64,000 bases of DNA from positions 1,736,001 through 1,800,000 of the forward strand of contig CP021424.1 in assembly GCA_002162095.1 (NCBI GenBank), written 5' to 3'. Made by a program: the position numbers and the translations under genes. The stretch's first letter is position 1, and each line of letters starts with the position of its first letter. The DNA is from Armatimonadetes bacterium Uphvl-Ar2 (GTDB taxonomy: Bacteria; Armatimonadota; Fimbriimonadia; Fimbriimonadales; Fimbriimonadaceae). The notes under the pieces are model-generated. The model was not told where the DNA came from and did not search any database. It saw only the letters and a list, made by a program, of their open reading frames with translations. Below, piece by piece: positions 9,842 to 25,947 of this stretch.

Positions 9842-10165
9842 ATGCCCAATGTAGGGGATCGCGTGCTGGCCCAGTGGCCGGTGGAAAAGGTGTGGTGGTA
9901 TCCCGGCACCATCATCGGGATGAGCGGCGGCCAGGTCGTGGTGCAGTTTGATGACGGCGACCGCTCGCCGGTGGGGCTGAACGAAGTGCGAGACCTCGCG
10001 GTCCGGGTGGGCACGCGGGTGTATGGCCGGTGGGAAGGCGGCGGCACCTACTACCCGGGCAAGGTGAGCGAGGCCGTGGGCCAGGCCATCCACATCAACT
10101 ACGACGACGGCGACCAGGAGTGGACCGCGGTCGGCATGGTCCGCATCCACCAGGACGACATCTAA
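9842..10165 (+). CDS. Tandem Tudor/agenet-like domain protein
   Basis: 107 residues made of two similar units. The first has VGDRVLAQWPVEKVWWYPGTI and VVVQFDDGDRSPV. The second has VGTRVYGRWEGGGTYYPGKV and IHINYDDGDQEWT. This is the aromatic, acidic pattern of Tudor/agenet-like (DUF4537-type) folds, best known in eukaryotic chromatin proteins and scattered among bacteria. ATG at 9842 is chosen as the first methionine before the first unit; a GTG at 9794 would add 16 residues. No Shine-Dalgarno was found. Its ligand is unknown. Confidence 0.65.
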   Translation: MPNVGDRVLAQWPVEKVWWYPGTIIGMSGGQVVVQFDDGDRSPVGLNEVRDLAVRVGTRVYGRWEGGGTYYPGKVSEAVGQAIHINYDDGDQEWTAVGMVRIHQDDI

Positions 10166-10192
10166 ATTACGGTTTGCCAGCGCGGGGCGGGA

Positions 10193-10969
10193 TTACGCCC
10201 AGCGCTTCGCCAATCGATCCCGCATCCACTGCGCCACCGCGAACGGGTCCGCCAGGCGGTGGCCGGTGGCGGGGTCGGTCCACTGGTAGTGCGCCGGCCC
10301 GAACTCCGGGTCCACCCCCAGTTCGGCCTGCCCCCGGGCGCTGGCCGCCTCCTTGATCTTGTCCCACCACCCCTCGTGCAGGGTCACGTAATCCGCCCAC
10401 ATCGGCACGCGGGGGTCGGGCACTTGGGGGCCTTCTTCGAACCCCACCCGCGCATGAATGTGCCGGGTGCGACCGATGGCCAGGTTCAGCGCCTCCACGT
10501 AGCCGCCCAGGCGGCTCTCGGTCACCACCGTCCAGTGGCTGAAGTCCGCGCACAGCCACAAATCGGGCAGCGCCCGCAGCAAATCCGCCGTGCTTAGCGG
10601 TTCAAAAAGCAAACGGCCGCGGTGCGTCTCAAAGTCCACCGGGAAGGGGTAGGGCGTGGCAATCTCCACCAGCCGACCGAGGAAATCCACCGCCTCTTGC
10701 CCGCGCATCCAGGGGCGGCCCGCGTGGACGGTGACGCCCGTGCACTGGCAATCGAACGCTTCATCCAGCCCGCGCCGGAAGGCGTCCGGCTCATCCCCGC
10801 CCACCATCGCGCGGTAGGCCAGGCCGTGCTTTTCGGCCACGGGGCGGAGTTCGGCGTGCGGGCGCACCCAGTCTTCGAATCCCTCAAACCCGGCGGCCTT
10901 CACCGCGGCCAGGCGGGCATCGAAGTCGCCGCCTAGGGGCCACAGCGTGGCGTAGTACCGAATCCGCAT
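10193..10969 (-). CDS. Sugar phosphate isomerase/epimerase-like TIM barrel
   Basis: 258-residue protein of the xylose-isomerase-like TIM barrel superfamily (AP endonuclease 2 fold). Supporting features are the N-terminal RYYATLWPLGG, AAVKAAGFEGFEDWV, VTVHAGRPW, VDFETHRGRL, LCADFSHWTVV and HIHARVGFEEG, which contribute likely metal ligands (Glu, Asp, His, His, Glu). Metal-dependent sugar isomerase or epimerase activity is likely; the substrate is unknown. ATG at 10969 is preferred because the protein begins with the first barrel strand there. Confidence 0.75.
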   Translation of the reverse strand: MRIRYYATLWPLGGDFDARLAAVKAAGFEGFEDWVRPHAELRPVAEKHGLAYRAMVGGDEPDAFRRGLDEAFDCQCTGVTVHAGRPWMRGQEAVDFLGRLVEIATPYPFPVDFETHRGRLLFEPLSTADLLRALPDLWLCADFSHWTVVTESRLGGYVEALNLAIGRTRHIHARVGFEEGPQVPDPRVPMWADYVTLHEGWWDKIKEAASARGQAELGVDPEFGPAHYQWTDPATGHRLADPFAVAQWMRDRLAKRWA

Positions 10970-11047
10970 AACGCTCCGAACGTTACCCCGCCCCTGCCCG
11001 CCCCGCAAAATGAACAAAACCAAGAACGAAAACGCGCAAAAACCCGA

Positions 11048-11053
11048 TAAACT
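11048..11053 (+). promoter_or_regulatory. -10-like hexamer (TAAACT) 6 bases before the DUF1552 start
   Basis: TAAACT ends six bases before ATG 11060, a spacing that would place transcription initiation at the start codon itself. An AGAGGT also lies just before the ATG, so a leadered message from further upstream is possible. Confidence 0.4.
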
Positions 11054-11059
11054 AGAGGT

Positions 11060-12403
11060 ATGCGCGAAGTCAGCCGCCGCACGGTATTGCGAGGGATGGG
11101 GGTGGCGATGGCCGTCCCGTTCCTCGAAGGATTAGCCCCCCGGAGCGTGCTGGCGGTGAGCGCCCCCGCCCGCCCCGTGCGCATGGCCTACCTTTTTGTG
11201 CCCAACGGCGTGGCGCACATGGACGCCTGGCGCCCCGCGGCCTCCGGCGTGCTGAATGATTTGCCCCCCATCCTGCGGCCGCTGGACAAGGTGAAGCAGC
11301 ACATGAACGTGCTGACCGGCCTGGACCAGCGCAACGCCAACGCCCTGGGCGACGGCCCCGGCGACCACGCCCGAAGCACCGCCACCTGGCTAACCGGCGT
11401 ACACATCAAGAAAACCGACGGCAGCGACATCCGCGCTGGGATCAGTGCCGACCAAGTGGCTGCCCAGTTCATTGGTAAGCAGACGCGCTTTGCCTCGCTC
11501 GAAATCGGGTGCGAGCGCGGCGCGATGGCGGGCAACTGCGACAGTGGTTACTCCTGCGCGTATTCCAGCAGCGTCTCGTGGGCCAGCGAAAGCACCCCCG
11601 TGGCGAAGGAAGTGAACCCGCGCGCGGTGTTCGAGCGGCTGTTCGGCACCGGCGATGAAGTGGCCGATGCGGTGAGCCGCGAGCGGCGTATGGCGCACCG
11701 GCGCAGCATCCTCGACTTTGTGATGGAGGACGCCGATGCCCTGCGGGGGCGACTAGGCACCCGCGACCAGCAGAAGCTGGACGAATATCTGGATGGGGTG
11801 CGCGACATCGAGCGGCGCATTGCCCGCGCGGAAACCGAAAACCGCTCGCTGATGGGCGAGGGCATCCCCGCGCCGGCCCCCGGCATCCCCCGCGACCGGG
11901 GCGAGCACATCCGCCTGCTGGGCGACATGATGGTGCTGGCGTTCCAGAGCGATCTCACCCGGATTTGCACCTTTATGCTGGCCAACGATGGCAGCAACCG
12001 GCCGTTCCCCGAGCTGAACATCGGCGACGGCCACCACGACGTGAGCCACCACGGCAACGACCCGGACAAGGTGCGGAAGAAGCAGCTGATTGACATCTTC
12101 CACACCCAGCAGCTGGCCTACATCTTGGAGCGTATGGCCACCACCGAGGATGGCGACGGCACCCTGCTGGACAACACCATGCTGGTGTACGGGGCGGGGA
12201 TTAGCAACGGCGACCGCCATAACCACGACGACCTGCCGACGATTGTGGCGGGGCGCGCCGGGGGGACACTGCGCACCGGGCGGCACCTGGTGTATCAGCA
12301 GGGCACGCCGATGAGCAATCTGTACGTTTCGATGCTGGGGCGCGTGGGCGTGCCGGTGGAAAGGCTGGGCGATAGCACGGGTCCGCTGCGCGAGTTGTTC
12401 TGA
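11060..12403 (+). CDS. DUF1552 family exported protein (Tat signal)
   Basis: 447 residues. The N-terminus has a twin-arginine signal (SRRTVLRGMGVAMAVPF) cleaved after about residue 35. The body follows the DUF1552 pattern: AYLFVPNGVAHMDAW, HMNVLTGLDQ, DHARSTATWLTGV, SLEIGCERG and CAYSSSVSWASESTP, with a C-terminal alkaline-phosphatase-like GDGHHDVSHHG region. It is usually the partner of DUF1592 proteins in Planctomycetes, Verrucomicrobia and relatives; the pair's function is not established. Its stop overlaps the start of the next gene (TGATG), indicating translational coupling with copy B of the copper-amine-oxidase-like family. Confidence 0.87.
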   Translation: MREVSRRTVLRGMGVAMAVPFLEGLAPRSVLAVSAPARPVRMAYLFVPNGVAHMDAWRPAASGVLNDLPPILRPLDKVKQHMNVLTGLDQRNANALGDGPGDHARSTATWLTGVHIKKTDGSDIRAGISADQVAAQFIGKQTRFASLEIGCERGAMAGNCDSGYSCAYSSSVSWASESTPVAKEVNPRAVFERLFGTGDEVADAVSRERRMAHRRSILDFVMEDADALRGRLGTRDQQKLDEYLDGVRDIERRIARAETENRSLMGEGIPAPAPGIPRDRGEHIRLLGDMMVLAFQSDLTRICTFMLANDGSNRPFPELNIGDGHHDVSHHGNDPDKVRKKQLIDIFHTQQLAYILERMATTEDGDGTLLDNTMLVYGAGISNGDRHNHDDLPTIVAGRAGGTLRTGRHLVYQQGTPMSNLYVSMLGRVGVPVERLGDSTGPLRELF

Positions 12404-20332: not shown

Positions 20333-20338
20333 CGACTT
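20318..20338 (+). repeat. 21-bp direct repeat, left copy (RNase J stop region)
   Basis: Contains the last four codons and the TAA of RNase J plus a few bases downstream. Matches 21412-21432 at 19 of 21 positions. The copies bracket the AT-rich gene at 20390-21379. Confidence 0.75.
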
Positions 20339-20389
20339 CGTTAATCTGTGCCAGCAGGTATAGAATTGCCATAAAAGCATCATCTTTAG

Positions 20390-21379
20390 TTGCGGAAAGT
20401 CGTGAGGTTTGTGAAGTTGATACGCACGATGGACATGCTCATGAGTGATGCGCAAGAAAGGCTCTTTCGTGCGCAGGTGCGTCGGGACGAGTTCTCAAGA
20501 TTCATTACCAGATTGAGGAGTTCTCAGAGCTGGGTAAGGAGAATTGTATCTACACCTCAACATCGAACTAACGAAGAGGGTTCGCTCGAATTTGAAGTCG
20601 AAGTATTATCTTTGATTGATGCTCCAAGTGAACTCAAAGTCATTTTCAGCGAGTGTATTCACCATTTACGAACAGCGAACGAACAACTCCTTTTTGCTGT
20701 GGTTTCAGGAGCCAAGAGTGCAGTCCGGAAGAAAAGTGTGTTAAACAAACTCAAATTCCCGTTGTGTGCAGAGCCAGAAGATTACGCATGTTGGTGTAAG
20801 CCACTTCATTTGCCTGAAAGTATTCAAGAGTATATCGAAGTGATACAACCTTATAAGTTTGAACAATCAGTCTTTGGTGGTCCGTGGTCAGGGCCAGGGC
20901 TTAAGCCTTTGGTTGTCCATCCGCTTCAGGTGCTTGCCGCAGTATCCAACCATGATAAGCATCGTTCAGCAATAAACCCGGCAGTAAAGCTAGGTCGAGT
21001 GGGTGTCAAGTGTCCAGGTTCACCTGAATTGTGGATTCCTAATACAAATAGTATTAGTAAGATCGCATTTGAGCGAGCCAGTCTGATTTCAAGAGGCTTC
21101 CCAGATTATATAAAATCGGTCTCGATTGACGTTCAATTTAAGGTTTCAACTCAAGGTCATTCCGTGACAATGGTATTCGTAAAGGTTGTAGGTGATTTGC
21201 CAATGGTCGAAACGCAATTCTTGATTGATGTATGGCCAGAGATTGACAATCGCGTACAATACTGCAGAGGCCGCGATTGCCTCCAAATATTGGACGAGAT
21301 TATCGAATATTCATCTAACGTATCGTTTCCTGCATTATTCAGATGTTTACAAGAAAATCATAAAAACAACTATCCATAG
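20390..21379 (+). CDS. AT-rich orphan gene, unknown function
   Basis: 329 residues from TTG 20390 (ATG 20429 is an alternative start). GC content is near 42% in a sampled line, far below RNase J and uvrA on either side. The N-terminal half looks helical. A central HPLQVLAAVSNHDKHRSAI resembles a motif (H-x-DKHR-type) found in a broad set of hypothetical proteins of mobile or accessory regions. A beta-rich half follows. No signal peptide and no enzyme motif was recognised. It is bracketed by a 21-bp imperfect direct repeat and is probably acquired. Confidence 0.6.
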   Translation: MRKVVRFVKLIRTMDMLMSDAQERLFRAQVRRDEFSRFITRLRSSQSWVRRIVSTPQHRTNEEGSLEFEVEVLSLIDAPSELKVIFSECIHHLRTANEQLLFAVVSGAKSAVRKKSVLNKLKFPLCAEPEDYACWCKPLHLPESIQEYIEVIQPYKFEQSVFGGPWSGPGLKPLVVHPLQVLAAVSNHDKHRSAINPAVKLGRVGVKCPGSPELWIPNTNSISKIAFERASLISRGFPDYIKSVSIDVQFKVSTQGHSVTMVFVKVVGDLPMVETQFLIDVWPEIDNRVQYCRGRDCLQILDEIIEYSSNVSFPALFRCLQENHKNNYP

Positions 21380-21411
21380 TGCATTCGACTATGGGGGCAT
21401 GGAAGTCGAGC

Positions 21412-21432
21412 TTGGTGACCAAGTAACGCCTT
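21412..21432 (+). repeat. 21-bp direct repeat, right copy
   Basis: Copy of the RNase J stop region (19/21) placed just before the convergent uvrA stop codon. With 20318-20338 it brackets the AT-rich orphan gene. Confidence 0.75.
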
Positions 21433-24354
21433 AGCTCACCGGAACGCGGTCTCGCTCCAAGAGCGGGGCGAGGAAACGACCGGTGTGCGAGGTCGGGTGG
21501 GCGACGATGGCTTCGGGTGGGCCGGCCACCAGCAAGGTGCCGCCACCGCTACCGCCTTCCGGCCCCAGGTCAATCACCCAGTCAGAGGTCTTGATGACGT
21601 CCAAGTTGTGCTCAATCACGACCACGGTGTTGCCCCCTTCCACTAACCGGTGCAGCACGGTGAGCAGACGATTGACATCCTCGAAGTGCAGGCCCGTGGT
21701 GGGTTCATCCAGGATGTAGAGCGTGCGCCCGGTGGCGCGCTTGCTGAGTTCCTCGGCGAGCTTGACGCGCTGGGCTTCCCCCCGGAAAGGGTGGTGGCGG
21801 GCTGCCCCATGCGGATGTAACCGAGGCCGACATCAAGGAGCGTCACCAGCTTGCGGTGGATCTTGGGGATGGGCGCGAAGAATTCGGTGGCTTCCTCAAT
21901 CGTCATCTCCAGCACGTCGGCGATGGTCTTGCCCTTGTAGCGCACTTCCAGCGTTTCGCGGTTGTAGCGCTTGCCCTTGCACAGCTCGCACGGCACGTAG
22001 ACATCCGGCAAAAAGTGCATTTCAATCTTGATGATGCCGTCGCCCCGGCAGGCTTCGCAGCGGCCGCCCTTCACGTTGAACGAGAAGCGCCCCTGGGTGT
22101 AGCCCCGCATCTTGGCGTCGGGGGCTAGGGCGAACAAGGCCCGGATGAGGTCGAACGTGCCCGTGTAGGTGGCCGGGTTGCTGCGCGGGGTGCGCCCGAT
22201 GGGCGATTGGTCAATGTCAATCACCTTGTCGAACTGGTCCACGCCCCGGATTTCGCGATGATGCTCCCACGCACTGCGCGTGCCGAACAGTTCGAACATC
22301 AGGCGAGGGTGCAGGGTGTCCTGGATGAGCGTGGATTTGCCGCTGCCGCTGACCCCGGTGACGCTGACGAAGCACCCCGCCGGGATGTGCAGGTCCACCC
22401 CCTTGAGGTTGTGCCCGGTGGCCCCATAGAGGCTGAGCCAGCCCGGCCCGCCGGGTTCTGGCGCCCGGGGCTCTCGGCGCTGGGCTGGCACTTCAATCTT
22501 CTTGTCGCCCCGCATGTAGAGCGAGGTGGGCGAATCGCGCTGAATGAACTCTTCGTAGGGGCCCTCATTCACCACGTAGCCCCCGTGCTCGCCCGCGCCG
22601 GGGCCGAGGTCCACCAGCCAGTCGGCGGCCCGCATGGTGTCCTCGTCGTGTTCCACCACCAGCACGGTGTTGCCGAGGTCGCGCAGGCGCTTGAGCGTTT
22701 CAATCAGGCGGGCATTGTCCCGTTGGTGCAAGCCGATGCTGGGCTCGTCGAGCACGTAAAGGCAGCCCATCAGGCCGCTCCCGATCTGGGTGGCCAGGCG
22801 GATGCGCTGGGCTTCGCCACCGGCCAGGGTGTTGGCGCTGCGGTCGAGGGTCAGGTAGGTCAACCCCACGTTGTCGAGGAAGTGCAGACGCTCGGTGATC
22901 TCTTTGACGGCGCGCTCCCCGATCGCCCACTGGCGGGCGGAAAGCCGCTCGGGCAGGTTGCGGAAGAACGCCAGCGCATCCCCCACGCTCATGGCGGCGA
23001 TGTGCGAAATGGTCTTGCCGTCAATGAGGACGGTCAGGCTCTCGGGCTTCAGGCGCTGACCCTGGCACACGGGGCACGGGCGGGTGCTCATGTATTGCCC
23101 CAGGTCGTTCTTCACCCACTCGCTTTCGGTGTTCTCCCACTTGCGGCGGAGGATGGCGATGACGCCCTTCCACTCGGTGGTGAAGGTGCGCGTGCCCTTG
23201 CCGTACTTCATCTGCACTGCCAGCGGGTCGTCGTGGCCGTGCCACACGTACTGCATCTGGTTTTCGGTGATTTCACTCACCGGCAGGCTGGCGTCGAACC
23301 CGATGGCGCGGCCCAAGGCGTCCAGCACTTCCGGCCACCACTCCTTGGTTTCGCCGCTCTTGTAGACGAACGGGCGAATGGCACCATCGCGGAGGGGCAG
23401 GGTGGGGTCGGTGATGATGAGATCGGGGTCGAACTCCGTTCGGGTGCCCAGGCCGGTGCATTCCGGACACGCCCCGTAGGGCGAGTTGAACGAGAACATC
23501 CGGGGTTCAAGCTCGGGCAGGGTAAAGCCGGAAACCGGACAGGCATAGTGCTCGCTGAAGACTTCCTCGCGCGGTTCGGGGGCGTCGGGCTCCTGGATGG
23601 TGAGGACGGCCAGCCCCTTGCCAAGTTTGAGGGCGGTTTCCACGCTCTCAGTGAGGCGGCGCTGGACGCCCTCTTTCAGCACAATGCGGTCAATGACGAC
23701 CTCGATGGTGTGCTGTTCGTAGCGGGCCATCGGAATGTCGTCGCTGACTTCGTAAATCTCGCCGTCCACCCGCACGCGCACAAAACCCTGCGAGGCGATC
23801 TCCTTGATTTCCTTCTTGTATTCGCCCTTGCGGCCGCGCACGATGGGGGCAAGGACTTGCAGGCGGGTGCCCTCGGGGTAGGCCAGCACCCGGTCCACGA
23901 TCTCATCTGGGGTTTGGCGGCTGATGGGCAGGCCGGTGGCGGGGGAGTGCGGGATGCCCACGCGGGCATAGAGCACGCGCAGGTAGTCGTAAATTTCGGT
24001 GACGGTGCCGACCGTGGAGCGGGGGTTGCGGCTGGTGCTCTTTTGGTCGATGGAGATGGCGGGGGAGAGGCCTTCCACGTGGTCCACATCGGGCTTGTCC
24101 ATCTGCCCGAGGAACTGGCGAGCGTAGGCGCTGAGGCTCTCCACGTAGCGGCGCTGGCCCTCGGCAAAGATGGTGTCGAACGCGAGGCTGCTCTTGCCGG
24201 AGCCGCTGAGGCCGGTGACCACCACCAGCTTGTTGCGCGGGATGGCAATGCTGATGTTCTTGAGGTTGTTCTCCCGGGCCCCGTGCACCACGATCTGGTC
24301 CGCCTTGGCGGCAGGCTCGATCAAGGGTTCTTGGGCGCGGGTGCGTTCCGACAT
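21431..24354 (-). CDS. uvrA: Excinuclease ABC subunit A, single-base frameshift near 3' end
   Basis: DNA-damage recognition ATPase of nucleotide excision repair, about 970 residues once repaired. Walker A motifs [13 protein letters not shown] (near residue 50) and [16 protein letters not shown] signatures [17 protein letters not shown] and TTLSGG, and zinc-finger cysteines [16 protein letters not shown] and CELCKGKR are present. After TLSGG, at the run of six C (plus strand) 21778-21783, the frame shifts. Adding one G on the coding strand restores EAQRVKL and the normal end with [20 protein letters not shown] and DLGPEGG. An intact uvrA is likely in the organism. Confidence 0.95.
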
Positions 24355-24444: not shown

Positions 24445-24768
24445 ATGCGGCATGGGTTTTTGTTCCTCGCTTTGTCCCTCTTGCTGGTGGGTTGCAACCC
24501 GCCGGCCGCTGAAGATGCGGGGGCCACGCCCGATGCGGGCTCGACTCCGGCCGTGGAAGGTGGGACGGCGCCGGCGGCTGGGGGTTCGGGCGATAGTAGC
24601 CAGGGCAATGTGGGCGTGATGCCGAGTGCGGCCGGAGGAATGGCGCCGGTGCAGAACCCGGAAGCCCTGCAAGGGGCTGGCGGTGGCGGCGTGCAACAAG
24701 CGGCCAAAGACCGAGCGCGCAACGTGGGCGGGGCGACCTCCGCCGACCAAATGCCGACGGACGAGTAA
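24445..24768 (+). CDS. Small lipoprotein, Ala/Gly-rich
   Basis: About 107 residues beginning MRHGFLFLALSLLLVGC, a lipoprotein signal with lipobox LVGC, so Cys17 would be lipidated. The rest is an Ala/Gly/Pro/Thr-rich low-complexity chain with no fold evident. TATCAT ends six bases before this ATG, fitting a leaderless start. ATG at 24430, preceded by GGAGGGGGA, is the alternative. It diverges from uvrA. Confidence 0.6.
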   Translation: MRHGFLFLALSLLLVGCNPPAAEDAGATPDAGSTPAVEGGTAPAAGGSGDSSQGNVGVMPSAAGGMAPVQNPEALQGAGGGGVQQAAKDRARNVGGATSADQMPTDE

Positions 24769-24776
24769 GGGAAATT

Positions 24777-24853
24777 TGGGGCGGATAATGGGTCTTGAAC
24801 CCACGACCTCCTCAGCCACAGTGAGGCGCTCTAACCCCTGAGCTATATCCGCC
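24777..24853 (-). tRNA. tRNA-His (anticodon GTG)
   Basis: Cloverleaf on the minus strand: acceptor GCGGATA with TATCCGC, D-arm GCTC/GAGC, anticodon stem CCTCA/TGAGG with loop CTGTGGC (anticodon GTG), and T-loop GTTCAAG. The extra G at -1 (base 24853) faces discriminator C73, the histidine identity pair, and CCA is encoded ending at 24777. Confidence 0.97.
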
Positions 24854-24919
24854 GCGTGGGCTAGAGTATAGACGAATTGGCGCGCACGCGTGAGGCCACC
24901 GGGACTGCCCGGCTCGGCG

Positions 24920-24964
24920 CCTGAATCCTCGCGCGAACCCGGCGCGTCTGGTGAAGAACAATGG
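24920..24964 (+). repeat. 45-bp direct repeat, left copy (rnhB start region)
   Basis: Matches 25903-25947 at 43 of 45 positions. It includes the bases just upstream of rnhB and an ATG. Here that ATG opens the kinase-like gene; in the right copy it opens rnhB. The copies bracket an AT-rich gene. Confidence 0.92.
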
Positions 24965-25869
24965 GTGCGAGCGGAGACCAGCCACGGGCCACGCGGTTGC
25001 TTCAGCAAGCCATATCCAGGCTTGGTCTCGAGATCCAGCGGGTTGTGCCCGTCTCAGACTCCTTCAGTTCCAGTGTTCTTTCCTTTGTCACGACACATGG
25101 ACAGCATCTCGTTCTCAAGCTTCCTTGGAGCCGAGCCAAGGCTGAGCGCGAGATACGGGCACTAGACCTCTTACAGAATCACGCGTTTGTGCCGAACTTG
25201 GTGGACACTCTGGAGATAGAAGGGGAATTGATTCTCCTGATCCAGGGCCTCGGTGGTGAACCTTGGCAAGAAAGTTGGGAATTGCCGCCAAAGAGTCTCT
25301 ATGACATTGGGCTTGCCGTGGCTCAAATACACGAAGTGTCTGTTGAGGGTTACAGTGGTCACGCATCTTGGGAGAGTTTTCTTCAGGAAAATGCTCGGGA
25401 GTACATTCAGCGAATCAAGGGAGATGATCGTGATCTTGCCCAAATCGCATTGCAGATTCTAAGCGAAAACATTGATATAGTTGACTTTTCTGGTAGTGCT
25501 CAGCTCGTTCACTTTGACCTCCGTCCCGGAAATGTGCTTGTGCGAGAATTGAACTTTGTCGGAATCATTGATTTCGAGTCTTGGAGGGGTGGTCACGCTT
25601 CCATGGACTTCTTCAAATTCTGGGAGCACTTCGCCAAAACCGGCCACAACGGGCTCGACTTGATTTGTAAAGCCTACCGTGACTCTGTTTCAGTAGCAGA
25701 AGGCTGGATGTATCCGAATGAGTTAGCTGAGCTGATGAAACTGTATTCCGCTTATCACGGGCTTGCCGGGCTATCTTGGTGCTATACGAGGAGTAACTTT
25801 GAAGGTGATTTTCCGGTGAGAAACCGGCAGCGGATTCAAGACGCCATTCAGTTTTTTGGCGTACCTTAG
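24961..25869 (+). CDS. Aminoglycoside phosphotransferase/choline-kinase-like protein
   Basis: 302-residue small-molecule kinase of the APH/ChoK (protein-kinase-like) fold. An N-lobe with LVLKLPW gives the likely ATP-binding lysine. The catalytic loop LVHFDLRPGNVLV (about residues 180-192) has the HxDxxxxN pattern, and GIIDFES (about 200-206) supplies the metal-binding aspartate. Substrate is unknown, and resistance should not be assumed. The gene is AT-rich relative to rnhB and uvrA. Its ATG lies inside a duplicated copy of the rnhB start region, so it appears to use native initiation signals. Confidence 0.75.
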   Translation: MGASGDQPRATRLLQQAISRLGLEIQRVVPVSDSFSSSVLSFVTTHGQHLVLKLPWSRAKAEREIRALDLLQNHAFVPNLVDTLEIEGELILLIQGLGGEPWQESWELPPKSLYDIGLAVAQIHEVSVEGYSGHASWESFLQENAREYIQRIKGDDRDLAQIALQILSENIDIVDFSGSAQLVHFDLRPGNVLVRELNFVGIIDFESWRGGHASMDFFKFWEHFAKTGHNGLDLICKAYRDSVSVAEGWMYPNELAELMKLYSAYHGLAGLSWCYTRSNFEGDFPVRNRQRIQDAIQFFGVP

Positions 25870-25902
25870 GGTCTGGGGAGGTGACATTGCACGAATGCCT
25901 AT

Positions 25903-25947
25903 CCTGAATCCTCGCGCGAACCCGATGCGTCTGGTGAAGAACAATGG
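25903..25947 (+). repeat. 45-bp direct repeat, right copy (native rnhB start)
   Basis: Right copy of the repeat at 24920-24964 (43/45). It ends with the ATG and next base of rnhB. Confidence 0.92.

Follow-up and report, generated by a model that had tools for sequence, protein, structure and literature searches.

Acquisition of a kinase-like gene ahead of rnhB, with a long target duplication whose start codon it appears to use

The event that we describe combines the gain of a single gene by the chromosome of Armatimonadetes bacterium Uphvl-Ar2 with the duplication of the site that received it. An APH-family kinase-like gene has been acquired by insertion next to rnhB, perhaps over a short stretch of homology, and the newcomer would probably be translated from the left-hand copy of the duplicated stretch and rnhB from the right-hand one. 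The event matches an already known type, the insertion with long target duplication; it is its junction that is unusual, and the pattern of the junctions is what deserves further attention. The entry and the expression of single machinery-free genes in bacterial chromosomes are poorly understood, and the question becomes testable here owing to the availability of sister genomes, an intact empty site, six parallel insertions of the duplication type and junctions at the edges of reading frames. The junction sequence can indeed separate a target-duplicating cut from an integration by short homology. Unless a contig is named, positions refer to the window, the whole stretch of 64,000 nucleotides (contig CP021424.1, 1,736,001 to 1,800,000) that was analysed.

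The rnhB locus and its empty counterpart

The locus is made up of the following features.

24777-24852, minus strand: tRNA-His (ARAGORN), old divergent neighbour of rnhB, which it adjoins in other genomes too
24853-24919, no strand: native tRNA-His/rnhB spacer, now 5' of the kinase only; unbroken alignment to UBA2785
24920-24964, plus strand: left 45-bp copy, with leader, GGTGA ribosome-binding site and ATGG; gives the predicted kinase start codon
24961-25869, plus strand: APH-family kinase-like gene, 302 aa (Pfam PF01636, E 9e-23)
24965-25902, plus strand: inserted 938 bp, GC 0.51, missing from UBA2785
25903-25947, plus strand: right 45-bp copy, before and including the rnhB start codon
25944-26540, plus strand: rnhB, ribonuclease HII, 198 aa, intact (Pfam PF01351, RNase_HII, E 1.5e-39); 98% identical in UBA2785

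The two copies of the direct repeat (24920-24964 and 25903-25947, spacing 983) are identical at 43 of their 45 nucleotides (96%), the two mismatches being those of GGCGCG/GATGCG. These coordinates confirm the preliminary description, which had placed a 45-bp repeat at the starts of both genes, except as regards its end: the repeat includes the ATGs of the kinase and of rnhB but does not stop there as had been claimed, both copies running one base further, to ATGG at 24961-24964 and 25944-25947. A genome-wide match gave only these two copies in the 2.63-Mb source genome, and the repeat reaches a score of 40, versus a 99th percentile of 13.5 for a null in which the left and right flanks were taken from different insertions. 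The 938 bp between the copies, whose GC content compares with about 0.62 in the genome stretches read, carry one APH gene that fills the insert. The open reading frames, the Pfam matches and the comparison of the ends revealed no terminal inverted repeats, transposase, recombinase or integrase in these 938 bp. No microhomology is visible between the ends of the insert and the native flanks, and its GC-rich start has no strong second source in the source genome, in UBA2785 or in a further relative, G002.

The kinase carries the catalytic motifs HFDLRPGN and IDFE and has in common with the APH/choline-kinase-like phosphotransferases (PF01636) the kinase fold family and the HxDxxxxN and IDFE motifs. 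It differs from the named antibiotic phosphotransferases, for which its NCBIfam matches all lie far below the cut-offs (30.7 bits versus 205 for APH(3')); the name of an aminoglycoside or macrolide phosphotransferase was therefore rejected, the score being under every curated NCBIfam cut-off. The PDB matches are weak and are to eukaryotic-type kinases only. The PADLOC matches to PD-T4-6 are confined to some 50 residues of the kinase core, and no defence assignment was based on them. Contigs of other genomes, viral contigs, plasmids and phages yielded no homologues of the kinase.

Among the genomes compared, the closest relative is Chthonomonas sp. UBA2785 (G001, DEIB01000009.1, Armatimonadota), of the same genus, the 98% given above for rnhB being an amino-acid identity. 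Aligned to the window, its contig runs without a break from tRNA-His through a single 45-bp copy into rnhB, with no kinase between them; this bears out the single copy predicted earlier for genomes without the gene; the repeat without the insert, i.e. two 45-bp copies and no kinase, had been named as the contrary outcome and was looked for and not found in the relatives compared. A divergent tRNA-His is present just upstream of rnhB, without the kinase, in UBA2785, G002 and five further genera, and the kinase is the newcomer because this adjacency occurs in six or more genomes that are less closely related. Furthermore, 291 genomes of the phylum contained no close match to the kinase, the other matches being weak and remote kinases. 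On this comparison, the kinase gene is a recent arrival, gained after the split from the sister species, and the 45 bp, made up of rnhB leader and ATGG, now lie on both of its sides. The opposite direction of change, in which the kinase and both repeats are ancestral and UBA2785 has lost the gene by recombination between the repeats, is highly improbable. Such a recombination would leave exactly one 45-bp copy, as UBA2785 shows, but no close match to the kinase occurs elsewhere in the family, the tRNA-His/rnhB adjacency without kinase recurs in several genera, and the loss would still require an earlier duplicating insertion. A deletion in UBA2785 in place of an insertion was thus rejected, since the kinase is absent elsewhere and the adjacency is old.

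Probable initiation at the duplicated start codon

The ATG of the kinase and that of rnhB are preceded by the same leader, TCTGGTGAAGAACAATGG, in which an identical GGTGA site, at a spacing of 6 nt, is complementary to the 3' end that bacterial 16S rRNA usually has. The duplex energy of this site is -7.4 kcal/mol, versus -2.5 at the in-frame TTG13 and -3.0 at GTG29, and it is a moderate ribosome-binding site, about 10% of random positions also reaching -7.4. Since the insert offers no equally good start, the kinase would begin at the left copy of the rnhB ribosome-binding site and start codon, and the most probable point of initiation is the duplicated ATG. That the kinase sits on the native initiation site, as the preliminary description had proposed, is likely in view of the identical GGTGA before both ATGs and the weaker sites at TTG13 and GTG29.

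The kinase might instead start at a downstream codon, the in-frame ATG of the 45 bp being fortuitous, which we consider rather unlikely. The Pfam APH match begins only at residue 28 and allows a later start, and the first 12 codons, which are GC-rich (GC3 of 0.75 versus 0.53 for the whole gene), need not come from the original protein; no close homologue of the kinase was found that would fix the ancestral start. On the other hand, the ribosome-binding sites before TTG13 and GTG29 are weak, so that the rival start with a ribosome-binding site of its own, already envisaged in the preliminary description, falls short of GGTGA, and the frame from the duplicated ATG is open from codon 1 without any frameshift.

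Of the 108 bp that separate tRNA-His from the start codon, only 45 were duplicated. The promoter of rnhB has therefore probably come to lie 5' of the kinase, and rnhB would depend in large part on read-through from the kinase gene. The kinase/rnhB region showed no recognisable promoter-like site. For this reason, and because rnhB is now downstream of the kinase, the immediate expression without loss to the host that had been proposed is unproven. As for rnhB itself, it is intact and has its own 45-bp copy; that it suffers no loss is likewise unproven, its promoter having probably been left on the far side of the kinase.

Parallel insertions in the two genomes and a possible route of entry

About 960 kb of the source genome were aligned with UBA2785 and simple insertions were counted if they measured 250 bp or more. 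Six of the 43 insertions thus obtained are unrelated inserts flanked by direct target duplications (74, 18, 30, 45, 207 and 70 bp), four being in the source genome and two in UBA2785. Seven other repeat-flanked insertions (events 14, 17, 29, 34, 37, 39 and 41) were left out by eye, as they resemble tandem paralogues or repeated domains. Besides the rnhB event, the duplication-type insertions are located as follows.

10194-10267: empty site; UBA2785 has a 1,497-bp insert with an SLFN_AlbA_2-type protein and a 74-bp duplication ending inside a stop codon
20317-20334, no strand: left 18-bp copy, holding the rnj stop codon (source genome)
20335-21410, plus strand: 1,076-bp insert between rnj and uvrA, GC 0.43, with a 329-aa frame of no family; missing from UBA2785
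21411-21428, no strand: right 18-bp copy, adjoining the uvrA end
24735-24764, no strand: empty site of the 30-bp duplication; UBA2785 has a 1,989-bp insert between two 30-bp copies
contig 2578242-2581081 and 2587183-2588291: two inserts at which 207 bp and 70 bp, respectively, of a host gene's 3' end are duplicated (source genome)

Among the proteins encoded by the duplication-type inserts are one of SLFN_AlbA_2 type, one of ImmA type that matches the PADLOC RmrA models, and others that belong to no family. The 1,989-bp insert of UBA2785 (L035, about 10050-12070), which carries an ImmA/RmrA-like gene and a 197-aa frame, is located where a small lipoprotein gene ends. At the five events other than that of rnhB, the gene-side junction is within 4 nt of a host stop codon, the offsets from its final base being -1, +2, -4, -1 and -4 nt according to frame calls on the empty-site genomes. 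The missing bases of the stop codon are supplied by the insert itself in several of the five, and in both the 207-bp and the 70-bp events the junction is at a stop codon that the insert completes. Random positions do not explain these stop-codon junctions under a rough uniform model, framed post hoc and with ranges and some neighbour distances assumed, which gives a joint probability of about 4e-6.

Could the kinase segment be a non-autonomous mobile element or cassette moved in trans (IS-like, an integron cassette or by a tRNA-linked integrase), the 45 bp being its target duplication or attachment site? A small one-gene insert beside a tRNA gene, with direct repeats on both sides, would suit such an origin, which is nevertheless improbable. 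No terminal inverted repeats or shared ends were found among the six inserts, whose ends are unrelated, and the 45-bp sequence occurs nowhere else in the genome. Transposases give fixed, short target duplications, whereas the length varies from 18 to 207 bp across the six events. A transposon or insertion sequence was accordingly rejected, there being no transposase, no terminal inverted repeats and no fixed duplication length. The same holds for a tRNA-targeted integrative element: the repeat (24920-24964) does not overlap tRNA-His (24777-24852), and the insert contains no integrase.

Insertion with long target duplication was described in Helicobacter pylori by Nobusato et al. 2000, as related in the relevant parts of PMC3031569 and PMC1643837, where the genes concerned are restriction-modification genes with long and variable target duplications; in these parts of the two papers the molecular route is not established. 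The present case has in common with it a gene-sized insertion between close genomes, a long and variable duplication and a recombinase-free insert: the site is single-copy and uninterrupted in UBA2785, the duplications are long and of variable length, and no recombinase was found. It differs by its cargo, which is an APH-family kinase and not a restriction-modification system, and by its duplication, which holds the ribosome-binding site and the start codon from which the newcomer seems to be translated. Homology-facilitated illegitimate recombination and single-crossover integration (PMC3240628; V. cholerae effector modules, PMC5361080) also place foreign DNA beside a shared stretch. Partial target duplications are reported for single-crossover integration, those produced in E. 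coli by the single crossover of a circular molecule measuring 109-950 bp (PMC3240628), and competence genes are present in the source genome. On the other hand, the classic products of homology-facilitated illegitimate recombination carry deletions and not duplications as here, and neither route explains the edge at the rnhB start codon.

We infer, less firmly, that the kinase segment was brought by transformation and joined by short homology. The DNA would enter by natural transformation, and a short shared stretch would serve to join it, through either a RecA-type single crossover or homology-assisted end joining; the duplication would be as long as this stretch and would have one edge where the homology ends. 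More firmly, translation of the kinase would begin at the left-hand copy and that of rnhB still at the right-hand one, rnhB probably coming second on a transcript shared with the kinase. Both the source genome and UBA2785 have ComEC and DprA but lack Ku, and Ku end-joining was ruled out on that account. Furthermore, the copies within one genome show 28 differences over 444 bp, versus 23 and 25 between species (small counts, P about 0.03), and a within-genome difference as large as that between species is expected if one copy is donor-derived. These two observations, together with junctions located where coding conservation ends, favour the short-homology route over a staggered cut.

The edge that short-homology joining would leave where the homology ends fits the stop-codon edges of the five other events, and explains them better than it does the start-codon edge of rnhB. 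The latter needs either a donor with the rnhB leader beside the kinase, or a chance event on which selection for expression then acted, the second being at least as likely as the first; a junction at the start codon is seen only once and may reflect chance or selection. No donor DNA with a stretch homologous to the target was found. If the six events are taken together, does this lineage repeatedly acquire recombinase-free genes or gene pairs by short homology, with junctions exactly at reading-frame edges, whether native stop codons or, in the rnhB case, a duplicated native ribosome-binding site and start codon, and with immediate translation and intact neighbours? We hold this generalization to be tentative and somewhat doubtful.

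The region upstream of the kinase presents other differences. The first 25 kb of the window and the DNA just before it (contig 1731-1761 kb) are hypervariable, with eight simple insertions between the sister genomes in 30 kb. Three inserts found only in the source genome (2750-5005, 12402-14204 and contig 1731166-1733422) encode proteins with differing N-termini and a near-identical C-terminal block, VDNIQRVAGREMVTKVDKNQNVYVDMNELSRHRGW, and no target duplication was seen at them. Finally, uvrA shows a frameshift close to the 3' end (about 21643-21800), where a 903-aa frame changes register after TTLSGG; the uvrA of UBA2785 reads through to its end, and the one-base difference in the alignment is either a real mutation or a sequencing error.
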